Assembly (NCBI RefSeq): GCF_000012945.1
Contig: NC_007509.1
Coordinates: 62,001-126,000, forward strand
Length of the DNA stretch: 64,000 nt
Direction: 5' to 3'
Source of the DNA: Burkholderia lata
GTDB lineage: Bacteria; Pseudomonadota; Gammaproteobacteria; Burkholderiales; Burkholderiaceae
In this document: positions 157 through 13,226 of the stretch, in pieces
Numbering within the stretch: the stretch's first letter is position 1
Layout of the letters: every line of letters begins with the position of its first letter
The notes under the pieces: generated by a model
Databases searched by the model: none
Told to the model about the DNA's origin: nothing
The model's input: only the letters and a program-made list of their open reading frames with translations
Made by a program: the position numbers and the translations under genes

Positions 157-1134
157 TCATGCACTCATGTTGAGCGAGCCGTTCACGCCATTCGGGAAAA
201 AGCCGCCTTTCATCGCTGCAGTGCTCGTCAGGTACACGATGTTGAGCACGTTGCCGTAGCCGCGACTGTAGGCAAGGCCGTTGCTGTCGAGCGGTACGAT
301 GTTCGACGAGCCTGGGGTACTGCCGGTGATGCCCTGGTCGTCGTTTCCAACCTGATCGAGGCTTGCGCGCGCGGCGGAAATTGCATTGGCCGCGTTGACG
401 AGGCTCGTCATGTCGACACCTTTCGCGAAGAGCACGGTCCGCACGAGGCCGGCATGATAGGCCTCCGCGGCGAGAATCCCTGCCGCCGCCTCGAGGAAGG
501 TCTTGTTGGTGATCAGCGGCGATGCGCCTTTGTAGGCCGTGACGCCGACGTCTTCGAAGATGAACGCGCCAAGCAGGAAGTTGTTGTCGCTTGCATAAGG
601 ATTGAAGGCTACGCCCGAACCAACGAGTCCAGCGGCTCGCGCGGCAACCGAGAACGCACCGTTCGGATCGGTGCCGCCAATATCGATCGCGGGCTGGGCA
701 ACCGCAGCCGATCCGAGTGCGGTGCGCAGGAACGTAACGTGCTCGCGCTCGTCCTTCGCGATTTCGTTGGCATAGGCTTGAACAACCGGATCCTGAAAAG
801 GCACCTGCTGTCCAGGAATTACCGCACCCGGCGTGCCTACACCGGTGACCATGCCGGCCGGCAAGCCGCTACCGGTGGTCGCGTACGTGTAGAACTGCGA
901 CTCGAGGTATTCGAGGTTCAATGCAAAGTTGAGAATTTCCGCATCGGTGGGCGCACCTGCAGCGGTTGCGTCGACTCCCGAGCCTCCGCCACACGCGCTG
1001 ATGAGCGTGCCGCCCATCAGCCCGAGGCCGAGTCCGCCCGCGTTCCTGAAAAACTGCCGGCGCTGCAAACGACGTTCGACGCGGCGGTCAAACACATCGA
1101 TAAGTGCTGACGAATCGGTTTTGACATCAGACAT
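157..1134 (-). CDS. Tat-exported ferritin-like domain lipoprotein
   Basis: Predicted 325-residue protein. Residues 25-30 (RRQFFR) form a twin-arginine signal, followed by a glycine-rich hydrophobic stretch and a lipobox ending ISAC with Cys48, so the protein should be Tat-exported and lipid-anchored. The rest is a four-helix ferritin-like domain with Glu and ExxH-type motifs (NLEYLESQFY, DEREHV, FEDVG, AEAYHAG) that could bind a di-metal centre. Such domains store or oxidise iron or simply bind metal; which applies here is not visible. The start at 1134 is preferred over the ATG two codons upstream because AGGAG sits 7 bases before it. A GCATCC-N15-CCGTAT element lies about 180 bases upstream, linking the gene to the ECF sigma regulon. 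It precedes the truncated gene at the left edge. Confidence 0.85.
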   Translation of the reverse strand: MSDVKTDSSALIDVFDRRVERRLQRRQFFRNAGGLGLGLMGGTLISACGGGSGVDATAAGAPTDAEILNFALNLEYLESQFYTYATTGSGLPAGMVTGVGTPGAVIPGQQVPFQDPVVQAYANEIAKDEREHVTFLRTALGSAAVAQPAIDIGGTDPNGAFSVAARAAGLVGSGVAFNPYASDNNFLLGAFIFEDVGVTAYKGASPLITNKTFLEAAAGILAAEAYHAGLVRTVLFAKGVDMTSLVNAANAISAARASLDQVGNDDQGITGSTPGSSNIVPLDSNGLAYSRGYGNVLNIVYLTSTAAMKGGFFPNGVNGSLNMSA

Positions 1135-1312: not shown

Positions 1313-1339
1313 ATACGGAGCGGCGGATTCGCCGGATGC
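1313..1339 (-). promoter_or_regulatory. Predicted ECF sigma promoter for the ferritin-like gene
   Basis: On the minus strand this reads GCATCC, 15 bases, CCGTAT. The same two blocks at the same spacing occur five more times in the first 12.5 kb, always upstream of a gene or operon in the right orientation. It would give a leader of about 170 bases before the ferritin-like ATG. Confidence 0.7.
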
Positions 1340-1438
1340 AGTCTCTTTGAATAATTATTAGGATATCGATCGAATATAGACGACGCTGGACTGCTGAGTG
1401 CCGACTGGACAGGAGCTGCATATTTTTAGGCAACGGAT

Positions 1439-1465
1439 GAATCCAATCCATGCCGCGGACCGTAT
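1439..1465 (+). promoter_or_regulatory. Predicted ECF sigma promoter for the fasciclin gene
   Basis: Reads GAATCC, 15 bases, CCGTAT on the plus strand, 49 bases before the fasciclin ATG. It differs by one base in the -35 block from the other five copies. It is divergent to the copy at 1313-1339, so the fasciclin and ferritin-like genes share one intergenic control region. Confidence 0.7.
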
Positions 1466-1514
1466 GGGAGTTCAACGCAGCGCAATCAGGCGCTGCTCGT
1501 TGAGGAGAACCATC

Positions 1515-2069
1515 ATGAAACGCACTGTTTTGTTTTCCGCTGTCGCACTGTCGGTGATCGCGATCAACGTGCTCGCTGCGGGCGGGACCGTGATGGTCGG
1601 CGGTCAAGCCATGTATCCAACCAAGGACATCGTCGACAACGCCGTCAATTCGGCGGACCATACCACGCTGGTTGCTGCGGTGAAGGCCGCCGGGCTCGTC
1701 GACACACTGAAAGGTGCCGGTCCCTTTACGGTGTTCGCGCCGACCAACGAAGCGTTTGCAGCGCTTCCGGCCGGAACTGTGGACAACCTCGTCAAGCCTG
1801 AAAACAAGGCAATACTGACTCGCATCCTCACCTATCACGTGTTACCGGGGCGCTACGACTTCCGCAAGCTCGACCAGGCAATCAGGGAAGGAGGCGGCAA
1901 AGCGGAACTGAAGACCGTCAACGGGGAGACGCTGGTGTTCTCGGAAAATGGTCCGCATAATATTGTCGTGATGGACGCGGCAGGGCACACCGCCGACATT
2001 TCGACCTATGACGTCTACCAGAGCAATGGCGTCATCATGGTGGTCGACAAGGTGCTGATGCCGAAGTGA
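1515..2069 (+). CDS. Secreted fasciclin-domain protein
   Basis: Predicted 184-residue protein: an N-terminal signal peptide (MKRTVLFSAVALSVIAINVLA) followed by one fasciclin (FAS1) domain. Hallmarks are the H1 motif FTVFAPTN at residues 71-78, the YHVLPG motif near 107-112 and a C-terminal hydrophobic strand NGVIMVVDKVLMP. FAS1 domains are extracytoplasmic and usually take part in adhesion or ligand binding. The start is set by GAGGAG 7 bases upstream; an in-frame upstream ATG lies inside the predicted promoter and is rejected. In mycobacteria the FAS1 proteins MPT70 and MPT83 are the main targets of SigK, and this gene carries the same promoter element as the SigK/RskA-like locus nearby. The molecular role is unknown. 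Confidence 0.92.
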   Translation: MKRTVLFSAVALSVIAINVLAAGGTVMVGGQAMYPTKDIVDNAVNSADHTTLVAAVKAAGLVDTLKGAGPFTVFAPTNEAFAALPAGTVDNLVKPENKAILTRILTYHVLPGRYDFRKLDQAIREGGGKAELKTVNGETLVFSENGPHNIVVMDAAGHTADISTYDVYQSNGVIMVVDKVLMPK

Positions 2070-2187
2070 GCAGCGTGTTCATATACGACGTGGCTGCACA
2101 TTATTCGTCGAACCGCGTTTTTCTGTCGTTTCTATTTTTTGATCGAGGTTGCGTGCTTGGCCCCCAGTTTCACGCGCAGCGAGCTCA

Positions 2188-3156
2188 TCACCGATGTCCG
2201 CCCTGGCGTGAGGGAACGCGAAGGGCGTCGAGGACGATTGCGTCGAGGATTGGCCAGACCGGTGAGTCGGGTATGACCTCGTCGAGGTGGTTGGCATCAG
2301 GGACGACAATTGCCCGGGCAGATCCCCCTGCTCGCTGAACGAGCGCCACATACCGGCGCGCCAGACCGGGCGGTGCGACCGAGTCGAGTGCGCCGGTAAT
2401 GGCGATCACGTTCATATCGTTCGGCACCAGCGATGCAGGCGACGTGTCGGACAGCACATCCGGACGCAACTCGCTGGGCATGCCGGTCAAGGCAGCGATA
2501 TCGATACCACATGATTCCCGTATCGCATTCGCATCGCTCCTCAAGTCCAGTAGGCCGCCCAGGCTGACTACCGTCGGGATCGAGAGCGGACGTGGTACAA
2601 ACAATGCGCTGCCCCGCGGCAAACGGGCTCGCGAGGCGGCCCATACCGCAAGTTGGGCGCCTGCCGAATGCCCGACTGCAACGACTCTGCTGCTATCGAG
2701 ATCGAGCGAGGCAGCCTGGACATCCAGAAGGTCGACAGCCGCTCCGATATCCTGATACGTCCCGGGATAGCCTCCCCCTGGCTCGTCGATCCGGCGGTAC
2801 TCCACATTCCATACCGCGATGCCTTGCCTTGCGAGTTGCGCGGCCAGCACGCGAAGTTGCAGGCGTCCGCCATAACGGCTTTGCCAGCAACCGCCGTGAA
2901 CCAGGATCGCGACCGGAAACGGGCCTTGACCCGGCGGGCGGAAAAAATCGACAACCTGCGAAGGCGCCGGTCCGTAGTGTACGACCGTGTCCGGAGTGGG
3001 CCCGTGCATCACGAGGTAGGTTTCTAGGCTGACGGGTTCCGCTCGCGCCCCGGCGACGGCGGATAACAGCAGCGCTGTCAATATCCGACACGGGGACGTC
3101 AACACTTTCCGCGGAAGCGAGCGGCGCCACGACCTCCCTGTCCAGCCGGAGCGCAT
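2188..3156 (-). CDS. Secreted alpha/beta hydrolase (esterase-like)
   Basis: Predicted 322-residue alpha/beta hydrolase of the BD-FAE/lipase type. The oxyanion-hole motif HGGCW is at residues 87-91, the nucleophile elbow GHSAG at 162-166 (Ser164), and acid and base candidates lie in GALDSVAPP and DANHLDE near the C-terminus. A hydrophobic segment at residues 23-38 ending AGARA looks like a signal peptide. The ATG directly follows the TAA of the small secreted protein gene with no gap and no good ribosome site, so translation is probably coupled. Both would be read from the ECF-type promoter at 3456-3482. The substrate is unknown. Confidence 0.85.
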   Translation of the reverse strand: MRSGWTGRSWRRSLPRKVLTSPCRILTALLLSAVAGARAEPVSLETYLVMHGPTPDTVVHYGPAPSQVVDFFRPPGQGPFPVAILVHGGCWQSRYGGRLQLRVLAAQLARQGIAVWNVEYRRIDEPGGGYPGTYQDIGAAVDLLDVQAASLDLDSSRVVAVGHSAGAQLAVWAASRARLPRGSALFVPRPLSIPTVVSLGGLLDLRSDANAIRESCGIDIAALTGMPSELRPDVLSDTSPASLVPNDMNVIAITGALDSVAPPGLARRYVALVQRAGGSARAIVVPDANHLDEVIPDSPVWPILDAIVLDALRVPSRQGGHR

Positions 3157-3411
3157 TTACTGGTCTTTTGCCTTGGGGGCCGCATTCATCTTCGACGGAT
3201 CCGGACTTGAATCGGCGCCGTCGTGCCGGTTGGCAGGCGCCATGCGTGGGTGAACGGGCCAAGGGCTGGTCGGACCCGAAACGGGATCACCCTGATAGGT
3301 CATGCCAGCCGTTGCAGCGCCATGTGCATTTCCTGAACCTTGCCCCGCGTGCGCAGCGGTGCTGCATGCCAGGCCAACGAGGATTGTCGCCATAGCTGTT
3401 TGCGCTTTCAT
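3157..3411 (-). CDS. Small secreted protein of unknown function
   Basis: 84 residues: a signal peptide (MKAQTAMATILVGLACSTAAHA) and a mature part rich in Gly, Pro, Ser and Asp with no recognisable domain. AGGAG lies 6 bases before the ATG, and a GCATCC-N15-CCGTAA element sits about 45 bases upstream. The gene abuts the hydrolase gene (stop codon immediately followed by its ATG). Reality as a gene is supported by the ribosome site, signal peptide, promoter element and coupling; the function is unknown. Confidence 0.75.
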   Translation of the reverse strand: MKAQTAMATILVGLACSTAAHAGQGSGNAHGAATAGMTYQGDPVSGPTSPWPVHPRMAPANRHDGADSSPDPSKMNAAPKAKDQ

Positions 3412-3455
3412 CGCGTGCTCCTAGGATTATGCTGTCGGGACGACAGTGCAACTAA

Positions 3456-3482
3456 TTACGGTAGAAGCCTCTTTGCGGATGC
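3456..3482 (-). promoter_or_regulatory. Predicted ECF sigma promoter for the small secreted protein and hydrolase
   Basis: Minus strand GCATCC, 15 bases, CCGTAA. It has one mismatch in the -10 block against the copies at 1313, 8202 and 10817. Confidence 0.65.
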
Positions 3483-3650
3483 ATTTCCTTTCGGGAGATT
3501 GGGCGCGAGCATCGCAAGTTTTCGGAGATGCCGTGTGCTATCGAAAAGGTGGCGTTCTTCGCCACATGACTGGAGGTACGTAAAAACGAGGAAAGGTCAG
3601 CGCGTTGGTCGTTTGGTTGGAGGTGCGCGAGCGCTGATGTCTAGCGTTAG

Positions 3651-4238
3651 CTAAGGTTCATGGCGCGTGCCGTCCAGACGGCGAGCCAACCAGACGGCCG
3701 AGGGTAGCAATATCCCCCAGCCGCACCCGAGCAGTACCCAAGCGGCCGGGCTTGCGATTTGTACGGCGCCGAGAGTCGCGCCTGCACGAAACGAGAGCGG
3801 GCCGGCGACGGCGCCGAGCAACGCGGCAGTCAGCCAGCGCTCGCGCAGCCAGCGAAGGGAGACGTTCAGCTGCGTGGAAAATAGCACCCACAGACCCGCG
3901 ATCCAGTATGGCGCTGCGCCCTCCAGCAGGACGCCGTTCGGGTAGCGCAACCAGCCCGTCGCAACGGGCACGGCGTCCCAGCTCCAGCCGAGCGCTGTGA
4001 CGATCGCCATCAATGCAGCTTCGCGGGCGTGGGCACGGGCGCGCAGAAGGTGGGCGCCCGCAAGCAGACCCGCACACAGCGTACCGATCCAGCCGCGCCC
4101 GTGCGCTGCACTCAGCACGCAGACGAACCAGCCGGCTTGCGACAGCGCGAGATAGGCGGCAGTCTCGGCCGCAGCGGAACGAATCATGGGCCGACACGCG
4201 CCCGACATGACGGCGGTGGTCTTCGCGGGCTCTCTCAT
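3651..4238 (-). CDS. DUF2878 membrane protein
   Basis: About 195 residues with five or six hydrophobic segments and the DUF2878 pattern (YLALSQAGWFVCVLSAAHG near the N-terminus, LGWSWDAV in the middle). Proteins of this family are found beside DUF1365 and cyclopropane synthase genes in many proteobacteria; their activity is unknown. The start is uncertain. The ATG at 4238 is eight bases past the upstream stop; ATGs at 4208 and 4187 are also possible and would remove a polar N-terminal extension. It is the last gene of the lipid operon. Confidence 0.75.
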   Translation of the reverse strand: MREPAKTTAVMSGACRPMIRSAAAETAAYLALSQAGWFVCVLSAAHGRGWIGTLCAGLLAGAHLLRARAHAREAALMAIVTALGWSWDAVPVATGWLRYPNGVLLEGAAPYWIAGLWVLFSTQLNVSLRWLRERWLTAALLGAVAGPLSFRAGATLGAVQIASPAAWVLLGCGWGILLPSAVWLARRLDGTRHEP

Positions 4239-4245
4239 CTCGTCG

Positions 4246-4773
4246 TCAACCGCCCGGGTCGCCGAGCAACTGGCGGCGAAGCGATCCCGCACGGGTGCGC
4301 GGATCGAGCCAGATGTCGAAGAACGCGCGCGCGAAGTCCGGATCGGCAACATCGGCCGTGAGGCGGCCGTTCGTGTAGAAGCGTGCGCCCTGGCCCGGCA
4401 GGTAAACGCCGCAGAGCACATCGCCGCGCAGCACGTCGGTGAAGGCGCGCGCGATGTCGGCGCGCCATGCGTCACGGGTCGCTGCGGGCAGCGGCGCAGG
4501 GGCGAGACGCTCGATCTCGCTCATGCCGGTGGAGACGAGCCGTTCGCCTTTCACGTCGTGGCGGTATGTGAGCGAGAGGGCGAACGGCGTGTCGAATGCC
4601 GCGGGCGCGCGGGGTGCCCAAAGCTGCGCGTCATACAGGCAGATACCAAGTACGCAGAATCGGCCGGACCCGATCAGACGCGCCGGCGCCACGTCGTCGA
4701 CACAACCGGCTCTCGCCACCTGTGTCGTGGCGAACGCTGCCACGGCCACGACGATCGCAAGTCTACGCGCCAT
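4246..4773 (-). CDS. Chalcone-isomerase-like periplasmic protein
   Basis: 175 residues: a signal peptide ending around AARA/VARAG, then a chalcone-isomerase-like domain (GSGRFCVLGICLYDAQLW, LSLTYRHDVKGERLV, FYTNGRLTADVADPDFARAFFDIWLDPRT). Bacterial members lack evidence of flavonoid chemistry and probably bind fatty acids or related lipids. GGGAGA lies 5 bases before the ATG, which favours 4773 over the ATG at 4797. It overlaps the end of the methyltransferase gene by 11 bases. Confidence 0.8.
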   Translation of the reverse strand: MARRLAIVVAVAAFATTQVARAGCVDDVAPARLIGSGRFCVLGICLYDAQLWAPRAPAAFDTPFALSLTYRHDVKGERLVSTGMSEIERLAPAPLPAATRDAWRADIARAFTDVLRGDVLCGVYLPGQGARFYTNGRLTADVADPDFARAFFDIWLDPRTRAGSLRRQLLGDPGG

Positions 4774-5992
4774 GTCGGTCTCCCGACGAGACGACAAAAT
4801 GCATCACGTCCGTGCGTCGCTCGGCGAACCCCGCTTCGCAATAGGCGAGATACAGGCGCCAGGTGCGGATGAAGGTGTCGTCGAACCCTTGTGCACGCAC
4901 GGCGTCGAGGTGATCCTCGAACGCGGCCCGCCAGGCGCGCAGGGTGCGTGCATAGTCGAGTCCGAACGCGAGCACGGGTTCGGCGGCGAGACCCGCGCGG
5001 CGCGCCGCCTCGATAAAGCGTCCGGGGCTCGGCAGCATGCCGCCCGGAAAGATGAACTCGCGGATGAAGTCGCTCGACGCGCGGTAGGCCTCGAACTGCG
5101 AATCGTCGATCGTGATCGACTGAATCAGCGCCCGCGCGCCCACCTTCAGGCGCTGCCTGAGCGTGTCGAAATACACCGGCCAGAATGCTTCGCCCACGGC
5201 TTCGAACATTTCGATCGACACGATCGCATCGTATTGTCCGTCGATATCGCGGTAGTCGCGCAACTCGACCGTCACGAGATCGGACAGCCCCGCGCGTGCG
5301 ATCCGCTCGACCGCCAGCACGTATTGCGCGCCCGAGATCGTCAGCGCATGCACGCGGATGCCCTGGCGTGCGGCGTGCATCGCGAAGCCGCCCCAGCCGC
5401 AGCCGATCTCGAGCACGTGCATGCCGGCGCGCAGGCCGAGCGACTCGACGATGCGCTGGTATTTCGCCGCCTGCGCATCGGCGAGCGGGCGCTGCTCGTC
5501 GCCGTCGAAACAGGCGCTCGAATACGTCCACGTGTCGTCGAGCCACAGTCCGTAGAAGCGGTTGCCGAGATCGTAGTGCGCGTGGATGTTGCGGCGGCTG
5601 CCGGCGCGCGTATTCATCCGCAGCCGGTGGCGCAGTGCATACCAGACGCGGGCGAGGCGGCCGCCCGTGAGCGTCTGCGCGATCGCCGGCTCGTTGCGGA
5701 TCGCCAGGCGCAGCAGCGTGACGAGGTCGGGGGTGTCGACCCGGCATGCGCGGTACGCCTCGGCGAACCCGATGTCGCCCGCACGCAGGATCGCGCGGCA
5801 CGCCCGCCAGTCGTGGATCTGTAGTGTCGCGGCCGGCTGGCGATGCGGATCGCCGAATACGTGTTGCGCACCGTCGGGCGTCACGAGCGTCAGGTGCCCG
5901 TGCCGGAGGCGTCGCAGCAGCGCGACGAACAGCCGGGGCGAGAGCGGCATCGCCGGTTGCGACGCGCACGAGAGCAGATGCAGCAGGGTCAT
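4763..5992 (-). CDS. Cyclopropane-fatty-acyl-phospholipid synthase family methyltransferase (copy 1)
   Basis: 409 residues. An N-terminal SCP2-like region is followed by the conserved HYDLGNRFYGLWLD...TYSSACF stretch (residues 139-162), the SAM-binding motif VLEIGCGWGG (193-202) and SIEMFEAVGE. The enzyme should transfer a methyl group from S-adenosylmethionine to the double bond of a membrane phospholipid acyl chain, giving a cyclopropane or a methyl-branched product. It is directly coupled to DUF1365 (ATGA overlap) and lies next to an FAD oxidoreductase, an arrangement shared with mycobacterial Rv0447c (ufaA1). That context favours methyl-branched or further modified fatty acids over a plain cyclopropane, but this is inference. 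Confidence 0.9.
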   Translation of the reverse strand: MTLLHLLSCASQPAMPLSPRLFVALLRRLRHGHLTLVTPDGAQHVFGDPHRQPAATLQIHDWRACRAILRAGDIGFAEAYRACRVDTPDLVTLLRLAIRNEPAIAQTLTGGRLARVWYALRHRLRMNTRAGSRRNIHAHYDLGNRFYGLWLDDTWTYSSACFDGDEQRPLADAQAAKYQRIVESLGLRAGMHVLEIGCGWGGFAMHAARQGIRVHALTISGAQYVLAVERIARAGLSDLVTVELRDYRDIDGQYDAIVSIEMFEAVGEAFWPVYFDTLRQRLKVGARALIQSITIDDSQFEAYRASSDFIREFIFPGGMLPSPGRFIEAARRAGLAAEPVLAFGLDYARTLRAWRAAFEDHLDAVRAQGFDDTFIRTWRLYLAYCEAGFAERRTDVMHFVVSSGDRHGA

Positions 5993-6843
5993 GGGCGGAC
6001 CTCGTGATCGGACATCGCTGGACTGCATGGCGGCGAGGCCTGCACGGGCGGGGACGCGGGCGCGTCCCCGGAGGGCGGCTGGGCCGGGGGCGTCCTGCCG
6101 TGGAACGGCACGCGCTTGAGCCAGAGCCGCAGCGCTTGCCAATGGATGCGGACGACGACGGCGAGCGCATTGAGCGGCTGCCGCGTGAGCGCGCGCCACG
6201 CGCGCGCGGCGGTCAGCGGTTGGGCCCGCATGCCGAGCGCGGTACGCAGCAGCAGGCCGCCGTCGTCGCGGTAGTCGATGGCGACGAGCAGGCGGTCTCC
6301 GCACTGCCGCACACGAAACGCGTAATGCCCGACGACGTCGCAGAAAGGCGATACGTGAAACGTCTTGCGGCACACGAGCACGGTGCCGCCGCCGATCGGC
6401 GCGTGGCACGGCGCGCTCAGCAGGTAACCGTGGTGCGCGCCGAATGTGTTGCGCACATCGGCATACAGCGCGCGGAGCCGGCCCGCACGGTCGTAGCAGT
6501 ACCAGAAGCTCACCGGATTGAATGCGTGGCCGAACATGCGCGGAATCGTCTGCAGCCAGATCGGGCCATCGGCCGGAATGCCGGCTTCGGCGAGGCGGGC
6601 ACGCATCCACGGTGCAAGTGGCCGGCCGTCGCGCGGGCCGTAGTCGCGCGACGCGAGGCCGAGCGGCCGCCAGCGGTCGATGCCGAACCAGCGGCCGTCG
6701 ATCTCGTGGAGCCGCTCGACGTCGCAGCAGACCTGGAAGAGCGGATACGTGAACGCGTGGCGCACGGGCCGTAGCCGTTCGTGCGTCACGTACCCGACGA
6801 GAAGCCGCGCGGCGCTGCCGTCGCGTGCGAACGGCGCATTCAT
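5989..6843 (-). CDS. DUF1365 family protein
   Basis: 284 residues matching DUF1365: LLVGYVTHERLRPVRHAFTY near the start, then GHAFNPVSFWYCYD, EVRNTFGxxHGYLL-like and HVSPFxDV segments. The family occurs almost always beside a cyclopropane-synthase-like methyltransferase and an FAD oxidoreductase, as here; mycobacterial Rv0448c is the equivalent. Its activity is not known to me. It is joined to the genes on both sides by 4-base ATGA overlaps. The C-terminal 40 residues are a Pro/Ala-rich tail. Confidence 0.9.
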   Translation of the reverse strand: MNAPFARDGSAARLLVGYVTHERLRPVRHAFTYPLFQVCCDVERLHEIDGRWFGIDRWRPLGLASRDYGPRDGRPLAPWMRARLAEAGIPADGPIWLQTIPRMFGHAFNPVSFWYCYDRAGRLRALYADVRNTFGAHHGYLLSAPCHAPIGGGTVLVCRKTFHVSPFCDVVGHYAFRVRQCGDRLLVAIDYRDDGGLLLRTALGMRAQPLTAARAWRALTRQPLNALAVVVRIHWQALRLWLKRVPFHGRTPPAQPPSGDAPASPPVQASPPCSPAMSDHEVRP

Positions 6844-8147
6844 GACGTGGCCCAGGCCGGCTTCACGCCGAAATCGTCGACCACGCGCAATGCGGATTTC
6901 AGGCCGTCCTCGTGAAAGCCGTAGCCGGTCCACGCACCCGCGAACCACGTGCGGCGCCGCCCCTGCAGCGCGGGCAGGCGTTGCTGAGCATCGACGGCGG
7001 CGAGATCGAGCAGCGGATGCTCGTAATCGTAGCTACCGAGCTGCGTGCCGGGCGCGGGCGCGTCGACCGGATTCAGCGTGACGACGACCGGCGTGCGGAA
7101 TGGCAGCGGCTGCAGCTGGTTGATCAGGTAGCTGACGCACACGGGCGATGCACCGCCGGCGGCCGGCGCGGTACGGCGGCTCAGGTAGTTCCACGCCGAC
7201 CAGACGCGCCGCCGGCGCGGCAGCAACGCCGTATCGGTATGCAGCACCGCGACGTTGTGCCGGTAGCGCACGGCGCCCAGCACGCCGCGCTCGGCGTCGC
7301 TGGCGTCCGCGAGCAGCCGCAGGCTGGTCGGCGCGTGGCACGCGAGCACGACGGCGTCGAACCGCTCATGGCCGGCCGCGTCGGTCGCCACCGTGACGCC
7401 GTGTTCGTCGCGCAGAATCGTGCGAACCGGCGTGTTCACGCGGACGTCGTCGAGCGTCGCGGCAATGCGCTCGACGTACCGCCGCGCGCCACCGGCGATC
7501 GTGCGCCAGGGCGGGCGGTCGTTGACCTGCAGCAGCGCATGGTTCAGGCAGAAGCGCAGGAACGTCGCCGCCGGAAACCGCAGGATGTCGTCGGCGTTGC
7601 TCGACCAGATCGCGGCCGCCATCGGCAGCAGGTAGTGCTCCTGGAACGATGTGCCGTAGCCGCCCGCGGCGAGCAGCTCGCCGACCGACAGACGCTGGCG
7701 GTGCGCCGTTTCGAGGTGACGCTGCGCGGATGCGTTGAAGCGCAGGATGTCGCGCAGCATGCCGAGGAACGACGGCGAGAACAGGTTGCGGCGTTGCGCG
7801 AACACCGTGTTGAGGTTGCTGCCGGCCCATTCGAGCCGGCCGCCGTCGACCGAAACCGAGAACGACATGTCGCTCGGATGCGCAGCCACGCCGATTTCGT
7901 CGAGCAGCGCGATCAGGTTCGGATAGGTCCGCTCGTTGAAGACGAGGAACCCGGTATCGACCGGATGGCTCGCGCCGTCGAGTTCGATATCGACGGTGTG
8001 GGTATGGCCGCCGAGGTAGTCGGCCGCCTCGAACAGCGTCACGCGGTGACGGCGGGCGAGCAGGTAAGCGCTCGCCAGGCCGGCGATGCCGGCGCCGACG
8101 ACGGCGATCCGCCGCCCGGGCGGCGAGGCAGTGGGGTGCGGATGCAT
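6840..8147 (-). CDS. FAD/NAD(P)-binding oxidoreductase (amine-oxidase fold)
   Basis: 435 residues. The N-terminal dinucleotide-binding motif IAVVGAGIAGLASAYLLARR (from about residue 13) is followed by ADYLGGHTHTV and a C-terminal FAD segment with WFAGAWTGYGFHEDGLKSALRV, typical of amine-oxidase/phytoene-desaturase-like flavoproteins. Relatives beside DUF1365 and methyltransferase genes include Rv0449c of mycobacteria and the flavoprotein of the Rhodobacter furan fatty acid pathway, so oxidation or reduction of a methylated acyl chain is plausible. The ATG at 8147 has GGAG about 10 bases upstream. An ECF-type promoter lies in the gap just before the gene, making it the head of its own transcript. 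Confidence 0.88.
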   Translation of the reverse strand: MHPHPTASPPGRRIAVVGAGIAGLASAYLLARRHRVTLFEAADYLGGHTHTVDIELDGASHPVDTGFLVFNERTYPNLIALLDEIGVAAHPSDMSFSVSVDGGRLEWAGSNLNTVFAQRRNLFSPSFLGMLRDILRFNASAQRHLETAHRQRLSVGELLAAGGYGTSFQEHYLLPMAAAIWSSNADDILRFPAATFLRFCLNHALLQVNDRPPWRTIAGGARRYVERIAATLDDVRVNTPVRTILRDEHGVTVATDAAGHERFDAVVLACHAPTSLRLLADASDAERGVLGAVRYRHNVAVLHTDTALLPRRRRVWSAWNYLSRRTAPAAGGASPVCVSYLINQLQPLPFRTPVVVTLNPVDAPAPGTQLGSYDYEHPLLDLAAVDAQQRLPALQGRRRTWFAGAWTGYGFHEDGLKSALRVVDDFGVKPAWATS

Positions 8148-8201
8148 CGCGATGGGTCTCCAGCAGGCGCGTGAGTGGTCTCGGTAGCGGCTTTTCACCA
8201 G

Positions 8202-8228
8202 ATACGGAGCAAAGCGGGCGGCGGATGC
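8202..8228 (-). promoter_or_regulatory. Predicted internal ECF sigma promoter for the FAD-DUF1365-methyltransferase unit
   Basis: Minus strand GCATCC, 15 bases, CCGTAT, a perfect match to the copies at 1313 and 10817. It sits in the 90-base gap between the lipocalin stop and the flavoprotein ATG, about 55 bases before the start. Confidence 0.7.
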
Positions 8229-8239
8229 GCGGGGCCCGG

Positions 8240-8848
8240 TCAGTCGCGCTCGCCCGGCGATGCGAAGCCCGGCTGGCCGATCTGCCCGGGTGTTTGCGGC
8301 ACGCGCCTGAAGCGCGACGTGTCGTAGCCCATCGCGTCGAGCCGGGCGAGCAGCGCGCGGTACGTCGCGTCCTCCATCGTCGGCGTGCGCGAGAAGATCC
8401 AGCCGAGCGTCTTGCCCGGGTAGCCGAGGATCGTGTAGCGATAGCCGGGATCGACGTAGAGCGTCAATTGCGTGACGTACACCGGCCAGAACAATCGCAC
8501 GCGCCATTCGCCGCCTGCGCTGCCCGGTGTCACGGAATCGACGAAGCGGTAGCGTTTCTCGGGCTGGTCGAAGCCGCCTTTCCGGCCGACGAATGCGTCG
8601 TCGATCCGGCCGTCCGCGCGCAGCGTCCACTCGGCCCGGCTGCCGACGTAATCGCGTTCCGCGAGATACGGGATGTTGGCGATCACGTACCAGCGGCCCA
8701 TGTAGCGCGGCAGGTCGACGGGCACGGTCGACAGCGGCACGGCGGCGCGCGGGTTCGGGTTCGGGGGCGTGCCGGGGCAGCCGGCGGCGGCGAGCGCGAG
8801 ACCCGGCGCGAGCAGGACGGCGACGCGGCGGACGATGCGATACGGCAT
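8240..8848 (-). CDS. Blc-type outer-membrane lipocalin lipoprotein
   Basis: 202 residues. The N-terminus has a hydrophobic signal and a lipobox-like AAAGC, then a lipocalin barrel with the GRWYVIANIPY motif (the GxW of bacterial lipocalin), a WTLRADGRIDD strand and LGYPGKTLGWIFSRTP near the end. Blc-type lipocalins bind lysophospholipids or fatty acids at the outer membrane. The gene overlaps the methyltransferase stop if the ATG at 8860 is used (ATGA, as elsewhere in this operon); the ATG at 8848 has a better ribosome site (AGGTG) and is chosen. Confidence 0.85.
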   Translation of the reverse strand: MPYRIVRRVAVLLAPGLALAAAGCPGTPPNPNPRAAVPLSTVPVDLPRYMGRWYVIANIPYLAERDYVGSRAEWTLRADGRIDDAFVGRKGGFDQPEKRYRFVDSVTPGSAGGEWRVRLFWPVYVTQLTLYVDPGYRYTILGYPGKTLGWIFSRTPTMEDATYRALLARLDAMGYDTSRFRRVPQTPGQIGQPGFASPGERD

Positions 8849-8856
8849 GAAGCACC

Positions 8857-9957
8857 TCATCTGCGCGCCGGCCGTTTGTCGAACAGGTAATGGGCGACAC
8901 CCCATTCCTGGCCGCCGGCATAGCCGAACAATTCGGCGACCGCCATGTAGAACATCCGCCAGCGCTGGAATCCGACGCGCGCGTCGGCGCCGTAGACCGC
9001 TTCGAGCATCGGCATGACCCGGCCGCGCGCGGCATCGAGCGACGCGAGCCACTGGTTGGCCGTGCGGGCATAGTGCGTGCCGTCGAGCCACCACTGGCGG
9101 GCGATGCGCACGTCGTCCTGGAAGTGCAGCAGCAGATCGGCGGACGGCATCGTGCCGCCGGTGAAGAAGTGGCGTGACATCCAGTCGGACCCGTCGCGCG
9201 CCGTGAAGTGATAGGCGAGGAGCCGGTGCGCGAACAGGTGCACGAAGAGCTTGCCGTCGTCGGGCATCCAGCGGGCGATTTTCGACAGCAACTGCCCGTA
9301 GTTCTTCATGTGCTCGAACATCTCGATCGACAGCACGCGGTCGAACCCCGCTTCGCCGGAGGCGAAATCGAATTCGGCCACGTTGCCCGTGACGATCCGC
9401 AGGTTGGTCAGCCCGCGGCGGGCTGCGCACTGCTCGATGAAACCGCGTTGACCGTGCGAATTCGACAGGCCGACGATCCGTGCGCGGGGATAGCGCTCCG
9501 CCAGCCACAGCGCCAGGGAGCCCCAGCCGCAGCCGAGATCGAGGATGCGCTGTCCGTCCGCGAGTTCGGCACGCCGTGCGGTCAAGCCGAGCATCGCGTC
9601 CTCCGCCTGCGCGAGCGTCTCGTCGCCGCCCGGGTAATAGCCGCACGAATATTTCAGCCGGGGGCCGAGATGGGCTTCGAAGAAGGCACCGGGCACCTCG
9701 TAATGCTGCGTGTTGGCCGCTTGCGTCTCGACCGCGATCGGGCTCGCGCGCAGTTCGCGCAGCAGCGTGTCGTGGGCCATCGCGCGCCGCTCGCCGTCGT
9801 CGGCGTGTTCGTCGCGCAGGCGTTGTCGCATCAGCGCACGCATCCCGGCGCGGATCAGCGGATCCGGCAGCCAGCCGCGCTCACAGCAGCGGATCAGCCA
9901 GGTGTCGCCGGGCGCGGCAATCCCGGCAGGCGACGGTTGCGAGGCGGTAGCGGTCAT
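8857..9957 (-). CDS. Cyclopropane-fatty-acyl-phospholipid synthase family methyltransferase (copy 2)
   Basis: 366 residues, a second and divergent member of the family. It has HYEVPGAFFEAHLGPRLKYSCGYY near residue 85 and the SAM motif ILDLGCGWGSL at 138-148, then SIEMFEHMKNY and a C-terminal GYAGGQEWGVAHYLF. The N-terminal SCP2-like part of copy 1 is replaced by a shorter helical region, as in the eukaryote- and plant-like group of these methyltransferases. The two paralogues probably act on different acyl positions or steps. It is coupled to the DUF1295 gene by an ATGA overlap. Confidence 0.9.
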   Translation of the reverse strand: MTATASQPSPAGIAAPGDTWLIRCCERGWLPDPLIRAGMRALMRQRLRDEHADDGERRAMAHDTLLRELRASPIAVETQAANTQHYEVPGAFFEAHLGPRLKYSCGYYPGGDETLAQAEDAMLGLTARRAELADGQRILDLGCGWGSLALWLAERYPRARIVGLSNSHGQRGFIEQCAARRGLTNLRIVTGNVAEFDFASGEAGFDRVLSIEMFEHMKNYGQLLSKIARWMPDDGKLFVHLFAHRLLAYHFTARDGSDWMSRHFFTGGTMPSADLLLHFQDDVRIARQWWLDGTHYARTANQWLASLDAARGRVMPMLEAVYGADARVGFQRWRMFYMAVAELFGYAGGQEWGVAHYLFDKRPARR

Positions 9958-10787
9958 GATCGCGTGCTCCTGTCTTCGGGACGATCCGGTCCGGTGCGGG
10001 AAGGGGGCGCGGCCCGCGCGGGCGGCCACGGGATCAGCGCGCTGGTCGTGCGCATGTATTCGCGATAGCCCGGGCGGGTGTCGACGAGGCGGGCTTCGAG
10101 CAGCGGCAAGCCGGACACCCTGAGCAGCAGCCATGCCATCAGGAACGGCGGCAGCAGGGCCAGCGCGCCCCACGGCATGCCGATCGCCAGGACCGTGTAG
10201 GCAAACCAGTGCAGGCATTCGAAAAAGTAGTTGGGGTGTCGCGAATAGCGCCACCAGCCGGCCCGGCAGACCTGGCCGCGTTGGCCGGGATCGGCCAGGA
10301 AGCGCTTGAGCTGGCGATCGGCGGCCGTCTCTCCTGCCACGGCGGCGAACCAGATCGCGACCGCGGCGGCAAGCGCGAACCGGGACGGGGCTGCCGCGCT
10401 GTAGGCGGGGACGAAGAACGCAACGGACAGCGCCATCGAGATCAGCGCCTGCAACTGGAACAGCCAGAACAGGTTGCGCGCGGCCGCATCGCCCCATTGC
10501 AGGCGAAATTGCCGGTAGCGCACATCTTCCGGCTGCCCGTGATTGCGGTGCCACAGGTGCCGCGCGAGCCGCAGCCCCCAAAGGCCGCCGCCCAGTGCGA
10601 CGAGCGCGCGGTTCAATTCCGCGCCGGTGCCGAATCCGGCGGCGAGCACGGCCACGCCGCCGAGCGTCGCGGCCCAGACCGGGTCGATCATGCCGGCGTT
10701 GCGCGAGCGCAGCTGAACGATCCACACGGCCGTGAACGCGAGTATCAGTCCGACGAAAGCGGCGAGGGCGACGGCGGCGGCAGGCAT
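9954..10787 (-). CDS. DUF1295 integral membrane protein (steroid 5-alpha reductase-like)
   Basis: 277 residues, six or more membrane segments, and the C-terminal signature of the DUF1295/isoprenylcysteine methyltransferase-like superfamily: WWRYSRHPNYFFECLHWF and PGYREYMRTTSALIPW. Family members are membrane reductases or methyltransferases; mycobacterial Rv0446c is the positional equivalent. GGAG lies 6 bases before the ATG at 10787; a longer frame reaching upstream would run through the promoter and is rejected. It is the first gene of the lipid operon, behind the promoter at 10817-10843. Confidence 0.88.
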   Translation of the reverse strand: MPAAAVALAAFVGLILAFTAVWIVQLRSRNAGMIDPVWAATLGGVAVLAAGFGTGAELNRALVALGGGLWGLRLARHLWHRNHGQPEDVRYRQFRLQWGDAAARNLFWLFQLQALISMALSVAFFVPAYSAAAPSRFALAAAVAIWFAAVAGETAADRQLKRFLADPGQRGQVCRAGWWRYSRHPNYFFECLHWFAYTVLAIGMPWGALALLPPFLMAWLLLRVSGLPLLEARLVDTRPGYREYMRTTSALIPWPPARAAPPSRTGPDRPEDRSTRS

Positions 10788-10816
10788 GCGGGCTCCGTGG
10801 ACGGGATAATCGTCAT

Positions 10817-10843
10817 ATACGGAGCCGGAGGCCGGATGGATGC
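10817..10843 (-). promoter_or_regulatory. Predicted ECF sigma promoter for the DUF1295-led lipid operon
   Basis: Minus strand GCATCC, 15 bases, CCGTAT, ending 30 bases before the DUF1295 ATG. The spacer begins ATCCG, close to GTCCG in the copy before the sigma gene. Confidence 0.72.
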
Positions 10844-10919
10844 GATTCAGCCGCGTGATGTACGCTTGCCGCGCTTGCGGCAAGCGCTCCGGGCGGTCGG
10901 CGCAAAGGGGCAGTGCTCG

Positions 10920-11654
10920 TTACGCGGCGTGTAACGTGCCGGTAGCGAGCACCGGGCCGGTTGGTTGACCAGTCGGCGAGCCGCCGCTCGGCTCGATCGA
11001 CACGGCAAGCACCGCGCGTGCGCTGAGTTGCGCGACGACCGCGGGCGGCAGCGTCATTGACGCGGGCGCGTCGGGCGGGAAGACACCGAGAGAAATCGGT
11101 TTCGCGTTCGGTGGAATCAGCCAGAGCTCTGTCGAGCGGTTCACGGCAATCGTCGGCTTGTCGGCCGGCACTACGACCATCCGGGCGCGCGGTAGATCAA
11201 CCGTGGCAGTCCAGTGCGCGACACCATCCGAGCGGGAAATGGTAGCCACCATGTAGTTGCTTTCGACGGCGGTTGTACGCTGTGACGCTTCCCGAACCCA
11301 TACCAAATTGATCGCAAGCAGTCCCAGCGCGGCAGCGCTCGCGCTAATGCCGACCCAGCGCCACAGGTTCACGCTATTCCACCAGCCACCCGTCGGCGCT
11401 GCGCCGCGTGCGGACGATCTAAGGAGGAACCCGACATCCCGCTGAATCCGTGTCCAGACGTGACCGGGCGGCTCGACGGGCGCAATGTCTTCGGCAAGAG
11501 GAGCTAGACGGCGCTGCCAGCGCTCGAGCGTGGATTTCAACGCCGGGTCGGCATCGACGGCATGCTCGAGTGCGCGACGCGCGTCGGCGTCGAGCAAACC
11601 GAGAGCGTATTCCGCGCAACGCAGTTCAGGATCGTGATCGGCCGGCGTATTCAT
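10920..11654 (-). CDS. RskA-type anti-sigma factor
   Basis: 244 residues. An N-terminal cytoplasmic anti-sigma domain (LRCAEYALGLLDADARRAL) is followed by one membrane helix (WVGISASAAALGLLAINLVWV, about residues 100-120) and a periplasmic C-terminal RskA domain with the typical ELWLIPPNAKPISLGVF segment. It should hold the adjacent sigma factor at the membrane until released by regulated proteolysis. The ATG at 11654 overlaps the sigma stop (ATGA) and has GGAG nearby; the ATG at 11666 has no proper spacing. Confidence 0.92.
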   Translation of the reverse strand: MNTPADHDPELRCAEYALGLLDADARRALEHAVDADPALKSTLERWQRRLAPLAEDIAPVEPPGHVWTRIQRDVGFLLRSSARGAAPTGGWWNSVNLWRWVGISASAAALGLLAINLVWVREASQRTTAVESNYMVATISRSDGVAHWTATVDLPRARMVVVPADKPTIAVNRSTELWLIPPNAKPISLGVFPPDAPASMTLPPAVVAQLSARAVLAVSIEPSGGSPTGQPTGPVLATGTLHAA

Positions 11655-12262
11655 TGCTCCAGACATTCCTTCAACTGCATCAGGCTACGCCGGATCCAGC
11701 TTTTCATGGTTCCAAGCGGTACACGCAGTCGCACCGCCAACTCACTGTAGGTCGCACCGCTGAAAAAGGCTTCACGCACTGCGCGGCGCTGGGGCGGCTC
11801 GAGCCATTCCAGGCAGCGCTCGAGGCGCTGCCGCTCCTGGCTTGCTTCCGCCAGCGCGGCGGGCGTCGGGGCCTCGTCGGGAAGGTCGAGCACCTGTTCC
11901 TCGTCAAGCGGCACCTCGCGATGCTGCCGCAACCGATCGATCGTCCGGTTGCGCGCCAGCGCGATGAGCCAGGTCATTGCTCCACCGCGTACGGGGTCGA
12001 ATGTATCGGCGCGGCGCCACGCGGTGGCGTAGACCTCCTGGAGCAGATCCTCCGCCTCACCCTGATCGTGGAGCATGCGGATGACGATACCGAAAACGCG
12101 TGACGACGTCAGCCGGTACAGCTCGGCGAACGCCGCCTGATCGCCTCGCGCGACCTGCAGCATGACTTGATTCAGATGCGCACGACGCGCGGCATCGGCG
12201 TCGCCATCGTGCGAAGGGGCTGACGAGCCAAAGCGCTCGGCACTATCCGGCGTGTCGTTCAT
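11651..12262 (-). CDS. ECF RNA polymerase sigma factor, SigK-like
   Basis: 203 residues with sigma region 2 at about 42-110 (DQAAFAELYRLTSSRVFGI, DLLQEVYATAWRR, WLIALARNRTIDRLR) and region 4 at about 145-198 (LPLGTMKSWIRRSL-type helix-turn-helix). Pairing with an RskA-type anti-sigma and proximity to DUF1295, DUF1365, methyltransferase and flavoprotein genes place it with the SigK group. The start at 12262 lacks a strong ribosome site. The element at 12403-12429 would give a leader of about 135 bases and predicts autoregulation. Confidence 0.9.
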   Translation of the reverse strand: MNDTPDSAERFGSSAPSHDGDADAARRAHLNQVMLQVARGDQAAFAELYRLTSSRVFGIVIRMLHDQGEAEDLLQEVYATAWRRADTFDPVRGGAMTWLIALARNRTIDRLRQHREVPLDEEQVLDLPDEAPTPAALAEASQERQRLERCLEWLEPPQRRAVREAFFSGATYSELAVRLRVPLGTMKSWIRRSLMQLKECLEQ

Positions 12263-12402
12263 GCGGGGGAAGGGGCGTGGATCGCCTCGGCGTGAATATC
12301 GTGCCGAATATAGCACTGCCGAACGCAGTCGATCGGGCAATCGGCGGCTGACAAGCTGGACGTTGTGCATGGCGATAGCCCGTAGGATCGTGCTGCTAAG
12401 AC

Positions 12403-12429
12403 ATACGAGAGAGTCGGTCGGACGGATGC
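12403..12429 (-). promoter_or_regulatory. Predicted autoregulated ECF sigma promoter of the sigma/anti-sigma operon
   Basis: Minus strand GCATCC, 15 bases, TCGTAT. Its presence before the sigma gene makes the SigK-like factor the natural candidate to read all six copies, since ECF factors commonly control their own genes. Confidence 0.68.
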
Positions 12430-12566: not shown

Positions 12567-13226
12567 CTAGATGCTGCCGCGATTGCGCGAGTCCACGGCG
12601 ACCACCGTGGGCGACTCCGCCAGCGAGACAAAGCTTCGGGTGGCGCCGTCGAGCGCGTCGATGCCTCCCGTCTCGATGTCGTAGACCCAGCCGTGCAGGT
12701 TCATGCGCCCTTGCTCGAGCGCGAGCGCGACCGACGGATGGGTACGGAGGTTGGCAAGTTGCGCGATGACGTTTTCGCGGACGAGGCCATCGAGCTTCGC
12801 GCGCGGCGTATCGTATTCATGCGCTGCGTTGATGACCTTCGCGGCATCGGCGTGGCGCAGCCAGTTCGCGACGGCCGGCAGATTGTCGAGGCAGGTACAG
12901 CGCGAAATCGCGCCCATTGCGCCGCAATCGGAATGGCCGCAGATCACAATGTCGCGGACGCCGAGCACGGCAACCGCGTATTCGACCGTGGCCGATACAC
13001 CGCCGGGTTCGGGGCCGTACGACGGCACGATATTGCCCGCGTTGCGAATCACGAACAGTTCCCCAGGCTCGCGTTGCGTGAGCAGCTCGGGCACGACGCG
13101 GCTGTCCGAACACGTGACGAACAGCGCTTTGGGGTTCTGTGACGTCGCGAGTTGCTTGAAAAGCTCGACACGTTGCGGGTAGATGTCGCGCTGAAAGCGC
13201 AGAAAACCGTCGATGACGTCACGCAT
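12567..13226 (-). CDS. Beta-class carbonic anhydrase
   Basis: 219 residues, a normal length for the family. The zinc ligands are Cys39, His98 and Cys101, with the Asp41-Arg43 dyad in CSDSR and the HSDCGA motif. It catalyses reversible hydration of carbon dioxide in the cytoplasm. GGAG lies 6 bases before the ATG. No copy of the ECF element was found upstream, so it does not appear to belong to the neighbouring regulon. It is the last core-like gene before the accessory island. Confidence 0.95.

Follow-up and report, generated by a model that had tools for sequence, protein, structure and literature searches.

The closest described relatives of the locus presented here are the mycobacterial SigK-RskA system and, in Gram-negatives such as Yersinia, an mpt83-sigK-rskA cassette that has a conserved SigK site (PMC7509140). 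Among the groups of extracytoplasmic function (ECF) sigma factors, SigK of Mycobacterium tuberculosis (Mtb) is placed in ECF18 and SigK of Yersinia in ECF19 (PMC7509140), while Mtb RskA has been labelled AS19-1 (PMC7406223). Mycobacterial SigK is autoregulated from the Rv0449c promoter (PMC7509140), and the stimuli of SigK systems have been called obscure (PMC9861118). Here, we describe a stretch from 1.1 to 12.4 kb of a Burkholderia lata window (the whole DNA analysed, 64,000 nucleotides, contig NC_007509.1, positions 62,001 to 126,000), which is very likely a self-contained, envelope-directed regulon of a SigK-like ECF sigma factor with six promoters and a lipid-remodelling and protective output. 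It has in common with both known systems a sigma factor with both SigK cysteines, an RskA_C anti-sigma factor, a fasciclin target and a conserved site upstream (PMC7509140).

Unlike SigK-RskA, the locus has a promoter spacer of 15 bases, a site directly before the sigma gene and all of its parts in one 11-kb cluster, and it adds a lipocalin, a second CMAS-family methyltransferase, a ferritin-like protein and a hydrolase. The mycobacterial lipid block Rv0449c-Rv0446c presumably matches the window genes, and the mycobacterial SigK promoter is close to CCATCC-N16/17-CCGAAT. The sequence-only reading, made before this analysis from the DNA letters, had called the motif similar to this promoter; the spacer is 15 instead of 16/17. 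It had also pointed to the same gene set in a Gram-negative; the set is present, but it is not new, since the Yersinia cassette has been published (PMC7509140). As SigK-RskA-fasciclin cassettes with conserved sites are already known from Gram-negatives (PMC7509140), the Burkholderia regulon is a new example of a known switch. No description of it was found in the literature searched, most subscription papers being beyond the reach of that search. An 11-kb Gram-negative cluster with six clean promoters makes it possible to ask outside mycobacteria what SigK systems respond to and for what reason fasciclins are among their targets.

The window contains six copies of the pattern G(C/A)ATCC-N15-(C/T)CGTA(T/A) and no more, at just the positions and on just the strands that the sequence-only reading had given, and 100 shuffles of the window yielded a mean of 0.01 matches. 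Each copy has a correctly oriented gene downstream, the sigma gene included, as had been claimed. GCATCC-N15-CCGTAT at 1313..1339 (-) lies upstream of the ferritin-like gene (178 bases from the -10 box to the proposed ATG), and GAATCC-N15-CCGTAT at 1439..1465 (+) upstream of the fasciclin gene (49 bases). GCATCC-N15-CCGTAA at 3456..3482 (-) precedes the gene of an 84-amino-acid protein (44 bases) and the hydrolase gene. GCATCC-N15-CCGTAT is found twice more, at 8202..8228 (-) before the operon that starts with a flavin adenine dinucleotide (FAD) enzyme (54 bases) and at 10817..10843 (-) before the DUF1295 operon (29 bases). The sixth copy, GCATCC-N15-TCGTAT at 12403..12429 (-), lies upstream of the sigma gene (140 bases) and would allow autoregulation. 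Within the predicted operons genes abut or overlap, and the elements stand at the operon heads (starts were checked). All six -35 boxes read GCATCC or GAATCC, none TGATCC, the ECF11/ChrR type.

Because the pattern was fitted to these six copies, counts in the window and the genome are circular when taken alone, and the tests in relatives are the independent ones. Relatives comprised 79 named loci around the sigma gene, from the best 80 of 501 confirmed stretches; orthologues were non-overlapping tblastn matches of at least 60 bits, carbonic anhydrase being left out, and the regions tested reached from 300 bases before to 60 bases after the estimated orthologue start. In sense orientation, ATCC-Nx-CGTA was found 126 times at x = 16, which is the spacing of the window, and 0, 0, 3, 0, 0, 1, 2, 0, 0, 1, 5, 1 and 2 times at x = 10, 11, 12, 13, 14, 15, 17, 18, 19, 20, 21, 22 and 23; 16 antisense matches at x = 16 are what divergent promoters would give. 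Strict sites stand upstream of operon heads, namely fasciclin (15/17), DUF1295 (34/42), FAD enzyme (22/42, relaxed 28/42), sigma (30/83, relaxed 40/83) and ferritin-like genes (2/5; L050 and L065, among four loci carrying one). Upstream of internal genes they number 0/80 for the anti-sigma gene, 0/44 for cfa1, 0/42 for DUF1365, 0/40 for cfa2, 0/8 for DUF2878, 0/4 for the chalcone-like gene and 1/27 for the lipocalin, and relaxed boxes give one for cfa1, three for cfa2 and two for the lipocalin.

A relaxed site lies upstream of a target in 61 of the 79 loci, and in eight of the remaining 18 (L069, L074, L075, L076, L078, L086, L089, L092) the site precedes a desaturase-like gene at the head of the lipid operon. 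The sigma gene is the assigned downstream gene of a site in 39 loci, the window included; this assignment takes the longest frame, and DUF1295 sites, among them the window's own, are partly labelled cfa2. No window homologue follows 55 of the 183 relaxed sites (among these are misframed DUF1295 sites and sites of other genes, and many probably arose by chance). Conservation across 124 distinct sites extends to positions that played no part in their selection: T before the -35 box in 105, C as its second base in 116, G after it in 93 and the final T of the -10 box in 105. The spacer itself is poorly conserved, and the motif is best written T-GCATCC-G-N14-YCGTAT.

Each window site has support outside the window. 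Orthologues of the 84-amino-acid gene occur in two of 64 other genomes of the genus (G817, G828), both with a site just upstream, and in L289 the hydrolase (66% identity) follows this gene. In other Burkholderia (L228, L229, L231, L247) the motif is followed by alpha/beta-hydrolase-like lipoproteins, a label based on a weak Pfam match of one 90-residue piece; downstream proteins were examined for eight of the 20 loci in this second Burkholderia set. Of eight plasmid records, six were scanned, the other two carrying no annotation. Upstream of the fasciclin gene, a Pantoea plasmid (order fas-sig-anti) has GCATCC-N15-TCGTAT and a Novosphingobium plasmid (sig-anti-fas) GCATCC-N15-CCGTAT; no such site was seen there in the cassettes of Streptomyces sp. 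SAT1 and Paracoccus albus. A plasmid of Thermus thermophilus (L195), from another phylum and with the order sig-anti-ferritin-like, has ACATCC-N16-CCGTAG upstream of the ferritin-like gene. A matching site in L195 also lies upstream of a DUF5602 gene. Among 11 distant fasciclin matches, two have sites of the window form (L153, L157), one a GAAACC variant (L160), three a site one base longer and five none; a site was found upstream of five of 41 distant sigma matches. In L167, L175 and L184, of the same class and one family, the fasciclin sites read GCATCC-N16-TCGTAT, i.e., spacer length differs by lineage.

These results bear on the idea that the motif is a chance pattern, or a shared non-promoter repeat that has spread through the cluster. 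The derivation of the pattern from the six copies speaks for it, as do seven further matches in the genome, five of them inside genes. A genome scan with a control, as had been proposed along with the sequence-only reading, returned 13 strict matches in 8,676,277 bases (3 contigs) and none for the pattern read backwards. Six of the 13 fall within 11.1 kb; of the other seven, five were judged from the list of open reading frames (ORFs) to be inside genes and two outside, one of which (C2:1743917) lies about 340 bases upstream of a serine-kinase-like gene. The sequence-only reading had named an equal frequency inside coding regions as grounds for its refutation; as only five of the 13 matches are inside genes, this is not what the genome shows. 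In relatives the spacing is fixed and the sites stand at operon heads; together with a poorly conserved spacer and the crowding of matches in the cluster, this makes the chance or repeat explanation hardly credible.

The sigma gene lies at 11651..12262 (-; Pfam Sigma70_r2/r4_2), and its stop overlaps the start of the anti-sigma gene at 10920..11654 (-) in an ATGA. The closest solved sigma structure is SigK (4nqw, 1.8e-35), followed by Rhodobacter sphaeroides RpoE (2q1z, 1.3e-29). Both SigK cysteines (Cys133, Cys183) align in the window sigma, and all 15 Burkholderiaceae sequences compared have the two of them; the pair is reported for 94% of ECF18, 56% of ECF19 and less than 2% of other ECFs (PMC7509140). 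Among the matches listed, the nearest named relative is from Burkholderia paludis (84%). The anti-sigma factor has RskA_C (PF10099, 1.9e-21) as its sole Pfam match, without a cupin, scores over the cut-off of the anti-sigma model NF052375 and shows one transmembrane-like segment near residue 104; its first 110 residues hold no HxxxCxxC zinc motif, and a search of solved structures with it gave only a chance match (E 0.43). It is the only RskA_C protein of the whole genome. SigK as the closest solved sigma, the RskA_C domain, the conserved promoter and the single RskA_C protein all support the SigK/RskA-like regulon of lipid, fasciclin and ferritin-like genes that the sequence-only reading had put forward. 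Two sigma matches are present in eight of 65 genomes of the genus, the window genome having one. Six loci of other Burkholderia (L228, L229, L231, L232, L233, L234) carry another SigK-like sigma gene behind the lipid operon, at a distance of about 10 kb from the first one; nothing next to it matches the window anti-sigma factor.

The lipid genes are also found beside anti-sigma factors of the ChrR type. DUF1365 is present in 133 of 299 Pseudomonadota genomes, 40 of which were hand-picked for family spread and partly for a nearby sigma factor. The order FAD enzyme-DUF1365-CMAS was found in 38 of these 40 regions; a ChrR-like protein lies near in 18, a number that owing to the choice is not a frequency, and an RskA-like protein in none. 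Anti-sigma factors scored next to a sigma carry the zinc motif in 11 of 13 cases. In a scan limited to GC, GG, TG or TC before ATCC in the -35 box, 14 of the 18 ChrR-linked regions showed TGATCC-N15-nCGTA, two GCATCC (L250, L268) and two neither; the ChrR locus of a Rhizobium (L196) reads TGATCC-N15-GCGTAT. The idea that GCATCC and TGATCC cleanly separate RskA-type from ChrR-type systems was rejected, as L250 and L268 contradict it. In the lineage of the window, all 42 loci bearing the triad of FAD enzyme, DUF1365 and CMAS have an RskA-like partner, although these loci were found through the sigma factor and thus are no survey.

Given such neighbours, the six elements could be genuine ECF promoters of which some or all are read by another ECF sigma factor, e.g., of the ECF11/ChrR type, with only partial overlap by the SigK-like one. 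The pairing of ChrR-like anti-sigma factors with GCATCC in L250 and L268 fits this idea, and so does the fact that the predominant ChrR-linked form is only two -35 bases different. We consider it unlikely: the 39 loci mentioned above have a site attributed to their own sigma gene, the SigK-like pair is the only adjacent pair in the window, and the site is enriched in genomes with this sigma factor. GCATCC-N15-YCGTAT occurs 0.578 times per Mb in 30 genomes of the family with the sigma factor, 0.244 times in 77 genomes without it of at least 4 Mb, and 0.250 times in 43 smaller ones without it, where presence means E <= 1e-60 and more distant SigK-like sigmas count as absent. The comparison with the 77 large genomes gives a Mann-Whitney p of 5e-9, which is indicative only because the genomes are related. 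That the SigK-like sigma factor reads the six sites is, as in the sequence-only reading, an inference.

Several observations weigh against a SigK-like regulon. Two were met above, the GCATCC boxes of L250 and L268 and the closeness of ECF11 promoters (TGATCC-N15-nCGTA). Sigma-negative genomes are rich in matches, too (121 in the 77 large ones), and the backwards pattern, with 0.000 per Mb in genomes with the sigma, 0.028 in large and 0.071 in small genomes without it (the same 150), is a rough control only. The strict site is absent from 53 of 83 sigma matches and 20 of 42 FAD orthologues, in relatives that are not mutually independent and in counts where one site may serve two neighbouring genes. 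In 40 distant loci, with both strands taken, x = 16 is preferred weakly (27 versus 4 to 18 at other spacings). The genome gives 62 loose sigma candidates, of which ten were scored and one passed 1e-25; other ECFs do exist. The NCBIfam SigK model NF007228 scores the window sigma at 171 bits with a cut-off of 226, and two other NCBIfam models score it higher, also below their own cut-offs. In a tree of 66 of the sigmas collected, Mtb SigK stands next to a Streptomyces plasmid sigma and is grouped weakly (85/90) with ChrR-type rows, not with the window sigma, which stands in a clade of Burkholderiaceae and Rhodanobacteraceae (97/97). No resolved clade joins the window sigma to Mtb SigK. On these two grounds, the missed cut-off and the tree, the name "SigK proper" was rejected, and we speak of a SigK-like factor. 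The pair probably works like SigK-RskA, though it is not filed as SigK proper.

The FAD enzyme, an amine-oxidase/desaturase-like and UfaD-like protein (6840..8147, -; PF01593 6.2e-26), has NCBIfam matches below cut-off that include phytoene/carotene desaturases. It is followed by the UfaO-like DUF1365 protein (5989..6843, -; PF07103 2.9e-75) and by a methyltransferase of the CMAS/cyclopropane-synthase family in UfaM-like position (4763..5992, -; PF02353 9.3e-79). UfaM, UfaD and UfaO, the latter a DUF1365 protein, make methylated furan fatty acids, and in Rhodopseudomonas palustris RPA2571, RPA2570 and RPA2569 are UfaD, UfaO and UfaM (PMC7380195). From 8147 to 4763, the window genes have the composition and order UfaD-UfaO-UfaM, judged by domain and order only. 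Therefore the output is probably membrane-lipid remodelling and protection of the envelope against oxidative damage. Two points count against this role. The furan step is read from domains and order only, and a comparable system of Stenotrophomonas maltophilia helped against superoxide, not singlet oxygen (PMC11832516). Alternatively, the operon may serve membrane rigidity in general by making cyclopropane or methyl-branched acids, with neither furan fatty acids nor oxidative stress involved. This is quite possible, if short of probable: the two CMAS-family enzymes have matches to cyclopropane-synthase models (below cut-off) and the DUF1295 protein is reductase-like, but furan fatty acid synthesis has been proven for the combination of FAD enzyme, DUF1365 and CMAS (PMC7380195), and these three keep their order in 38 of the 40 sampled DUF1365 regions.

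The remaining genes of this operon code for a chalcone-isomerase-like protein (4246..4773, -; PF16036, Chalcone_3, 1.1e-11) and a DUF2878 membrane protein of uncertain start (3651..4238, -; PF11086 1.1e-37). The DUF1295 operon comprises a steroid 5-alpha-reductase-like membrane enzyme (9954..10787, -; PF06966 6.9e-57), the second CMAS-family methyltransferase (8857..9957, -; PF02353 2.7e-37) and the lipocalin with a lipobox-like signal, AAAGC (8240..8860, -; PF08212 9.2e-30). The 84-amino-acid protein (3157..3411, -), without a Pfam match, has a signal-peptide-like N-terminus and is followed by a probably exported alpha/beta hydrolase of the BD-FAE type (2188..3156, -; PF20434 6.4e-19). Divergent genes encode the fasciclin-domain protein, likewise with a signal-peptide-like N-terminus (1515..2069, +; PF02469 1.1e-31), and the Ferritin_2 protein with RRQFF twin-arginine-like and lipobox-like motifs (157..1134, -; PF13668 5.3e-44). 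The exported character of these five proteins (fasciclin, ferritin-like, lipocalin, hydrolase, 84-amino-acid protein) was read by eye. Within the stretches covered, the triad is present in 42 of the 79 loci, fasciclin in 17, both only in one (Pandoraea captiosa, L067) and neither in 21; a cluster with triad and fasciclin together, as in the window, is unusual.

A similar output is known under ChrR-type control. The sigmaEc-ChrR system of S. maltophilia (smlt2375-2367) places a desaturase, an FAD oxidoreductase, two CFA synthases, inner-membrane proteins and a lipocalin under one ECF sigma factor, as in the window regulon, and its nine genes were induced 165- to 697-fold on deletion of the anti-sigma factor in a sigma-dependent manner (PMC11832516). 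Unlike in the window, the anti-sigma factor is called ChrR, and the table rows covered list no fasciclin or ferritin-like gene (PMC11832516). In Dyella, Rhodanobacter, Pinirhizobacter and Frateuria, the lipid operon starts with a fatty-acid-desaturase-like gene (PF00487 below cut-off on a 150-residue piece) with a site upstream, as in the S. maltophilia order. The order smlt2375-2367 would equal that of the Dyella/Rhodanobacter loci L074, L075 and L086, if three hypothetical proteins are DUF1365, DUF2878 and DUF1295. In R. sphaeroides, RpoE-ChrR (ECF11) likewise controls an FAD enzyme, a DUF1365 protein and a CFA-like methylase (PMC6852236, PMC7380195), and the fasciclin RSP_1409 listed in a table of PMC7074977 is a further likeness. 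ChrR of R. sphaeroides has zinc-binding anti-sigma and cupin-like domains (PMC6852236), in contrast to the window anti-sigma factor with its transmembrane-like segment and no zinc motif. The pair called RpoE-ChrR in Rhodobacter capsulatus reportedly has SigK-RskA, and not its R. sphaeroides namesake, as the nearer relative; unlike the window pair, it lies by the photosynthesis cluster, and the table rows covered give no homologue for RSP_1087 to RSP_1090 or for the fasciclin RSP_1409 (PMC7074977).

Taken together, gene order and promoters make it somewhat likely that a UfaD-UfaO-UfaM-type module, often with DUF1295, lipocalin or fasciclin, is controlled by two sensors, and that the sensor was swapped with promoter grammar and output conserved. 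The architectures would then be a zinc/cupin ChrR in many Pseudomonadota and a membrane-anchored RskA in Burkholderiaceae and Rhodanobacteraceae, an assignment we favour with some reserve. Mycobacteria are presumably further bearers of the same module with an RskA-type sensor. The promoter, too, seems rather more probably than otherwise to be kept almost the same across sensor types, as [TG or GC]ATCC-N15-nCGTA. The occurrence of a single lipid module with either a ChrR-type or an RskA-type regulator offers a natural experiment for finding out what the two sensors respond to.

For the Burkholderia regulon, we propose that the membrane-anchored RskA-like anti-sigma factor holds the SigK-like sigma factor, until an envelope signal releases or activates it, our best guess for this signal being the oxidation of thiols or lipids. 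The sigma factor would then direct RNA polymerase to T-GCATCC-N15-YCGTAT promoters of five units: (a) sigma and anti-sigma factor themselves; (b) DUF1295-CMAS-lipocalin; (c) FAD enzyme-DUF1365-CMAS-chalcone-like-DUF2878; (d) the exported-looking 84-amino-acid protein and the hydrolase; and (e) the fasciclin and the exported ferritin-like protein, which are divergent.

The carbonic anhydrase gene beside the sigma gene (12567-13226) was rejected as a target, since it lacks a site and, among the 79 relatives, L015 alone contains a match to it. Beyond it lies a Tn3-family transposase gene (DDE_Tnp_Tn3, DUF4158; 13652-16588, +), possibly the boundary of a mobile element. Elsewhere in the genome, a strict motif at C2:724325-724351 (locus L009, 1501-1527) stands 24 bases upstream of a flavohaemoglobin start codon and overlaps an NsrR-like AAGATGTAT; a further target or chance are both possible. 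In Rhodanobacter (L066, L069, L073, L081, L090) relaxed motifs lie upstream of exported PF03640-repeat-like and DUF3034-like proteins, and in Paraburkholderia/Caballeronia (L030, L037, L038, L046) upstream of DUF3303-like proteins, each label being based on Pfam for one example. Finally, the motif is found upstream of a 229-amino-acid lipoprotein in L231 (15767-15793; ORF 15874-16563), L230 (2390) and L057 (16986); this protein, perhaps a truncated globin that is exported (Pfam Globin E 0.033, below cut-off), is encoded divergently from the fasciclin gene in L230.

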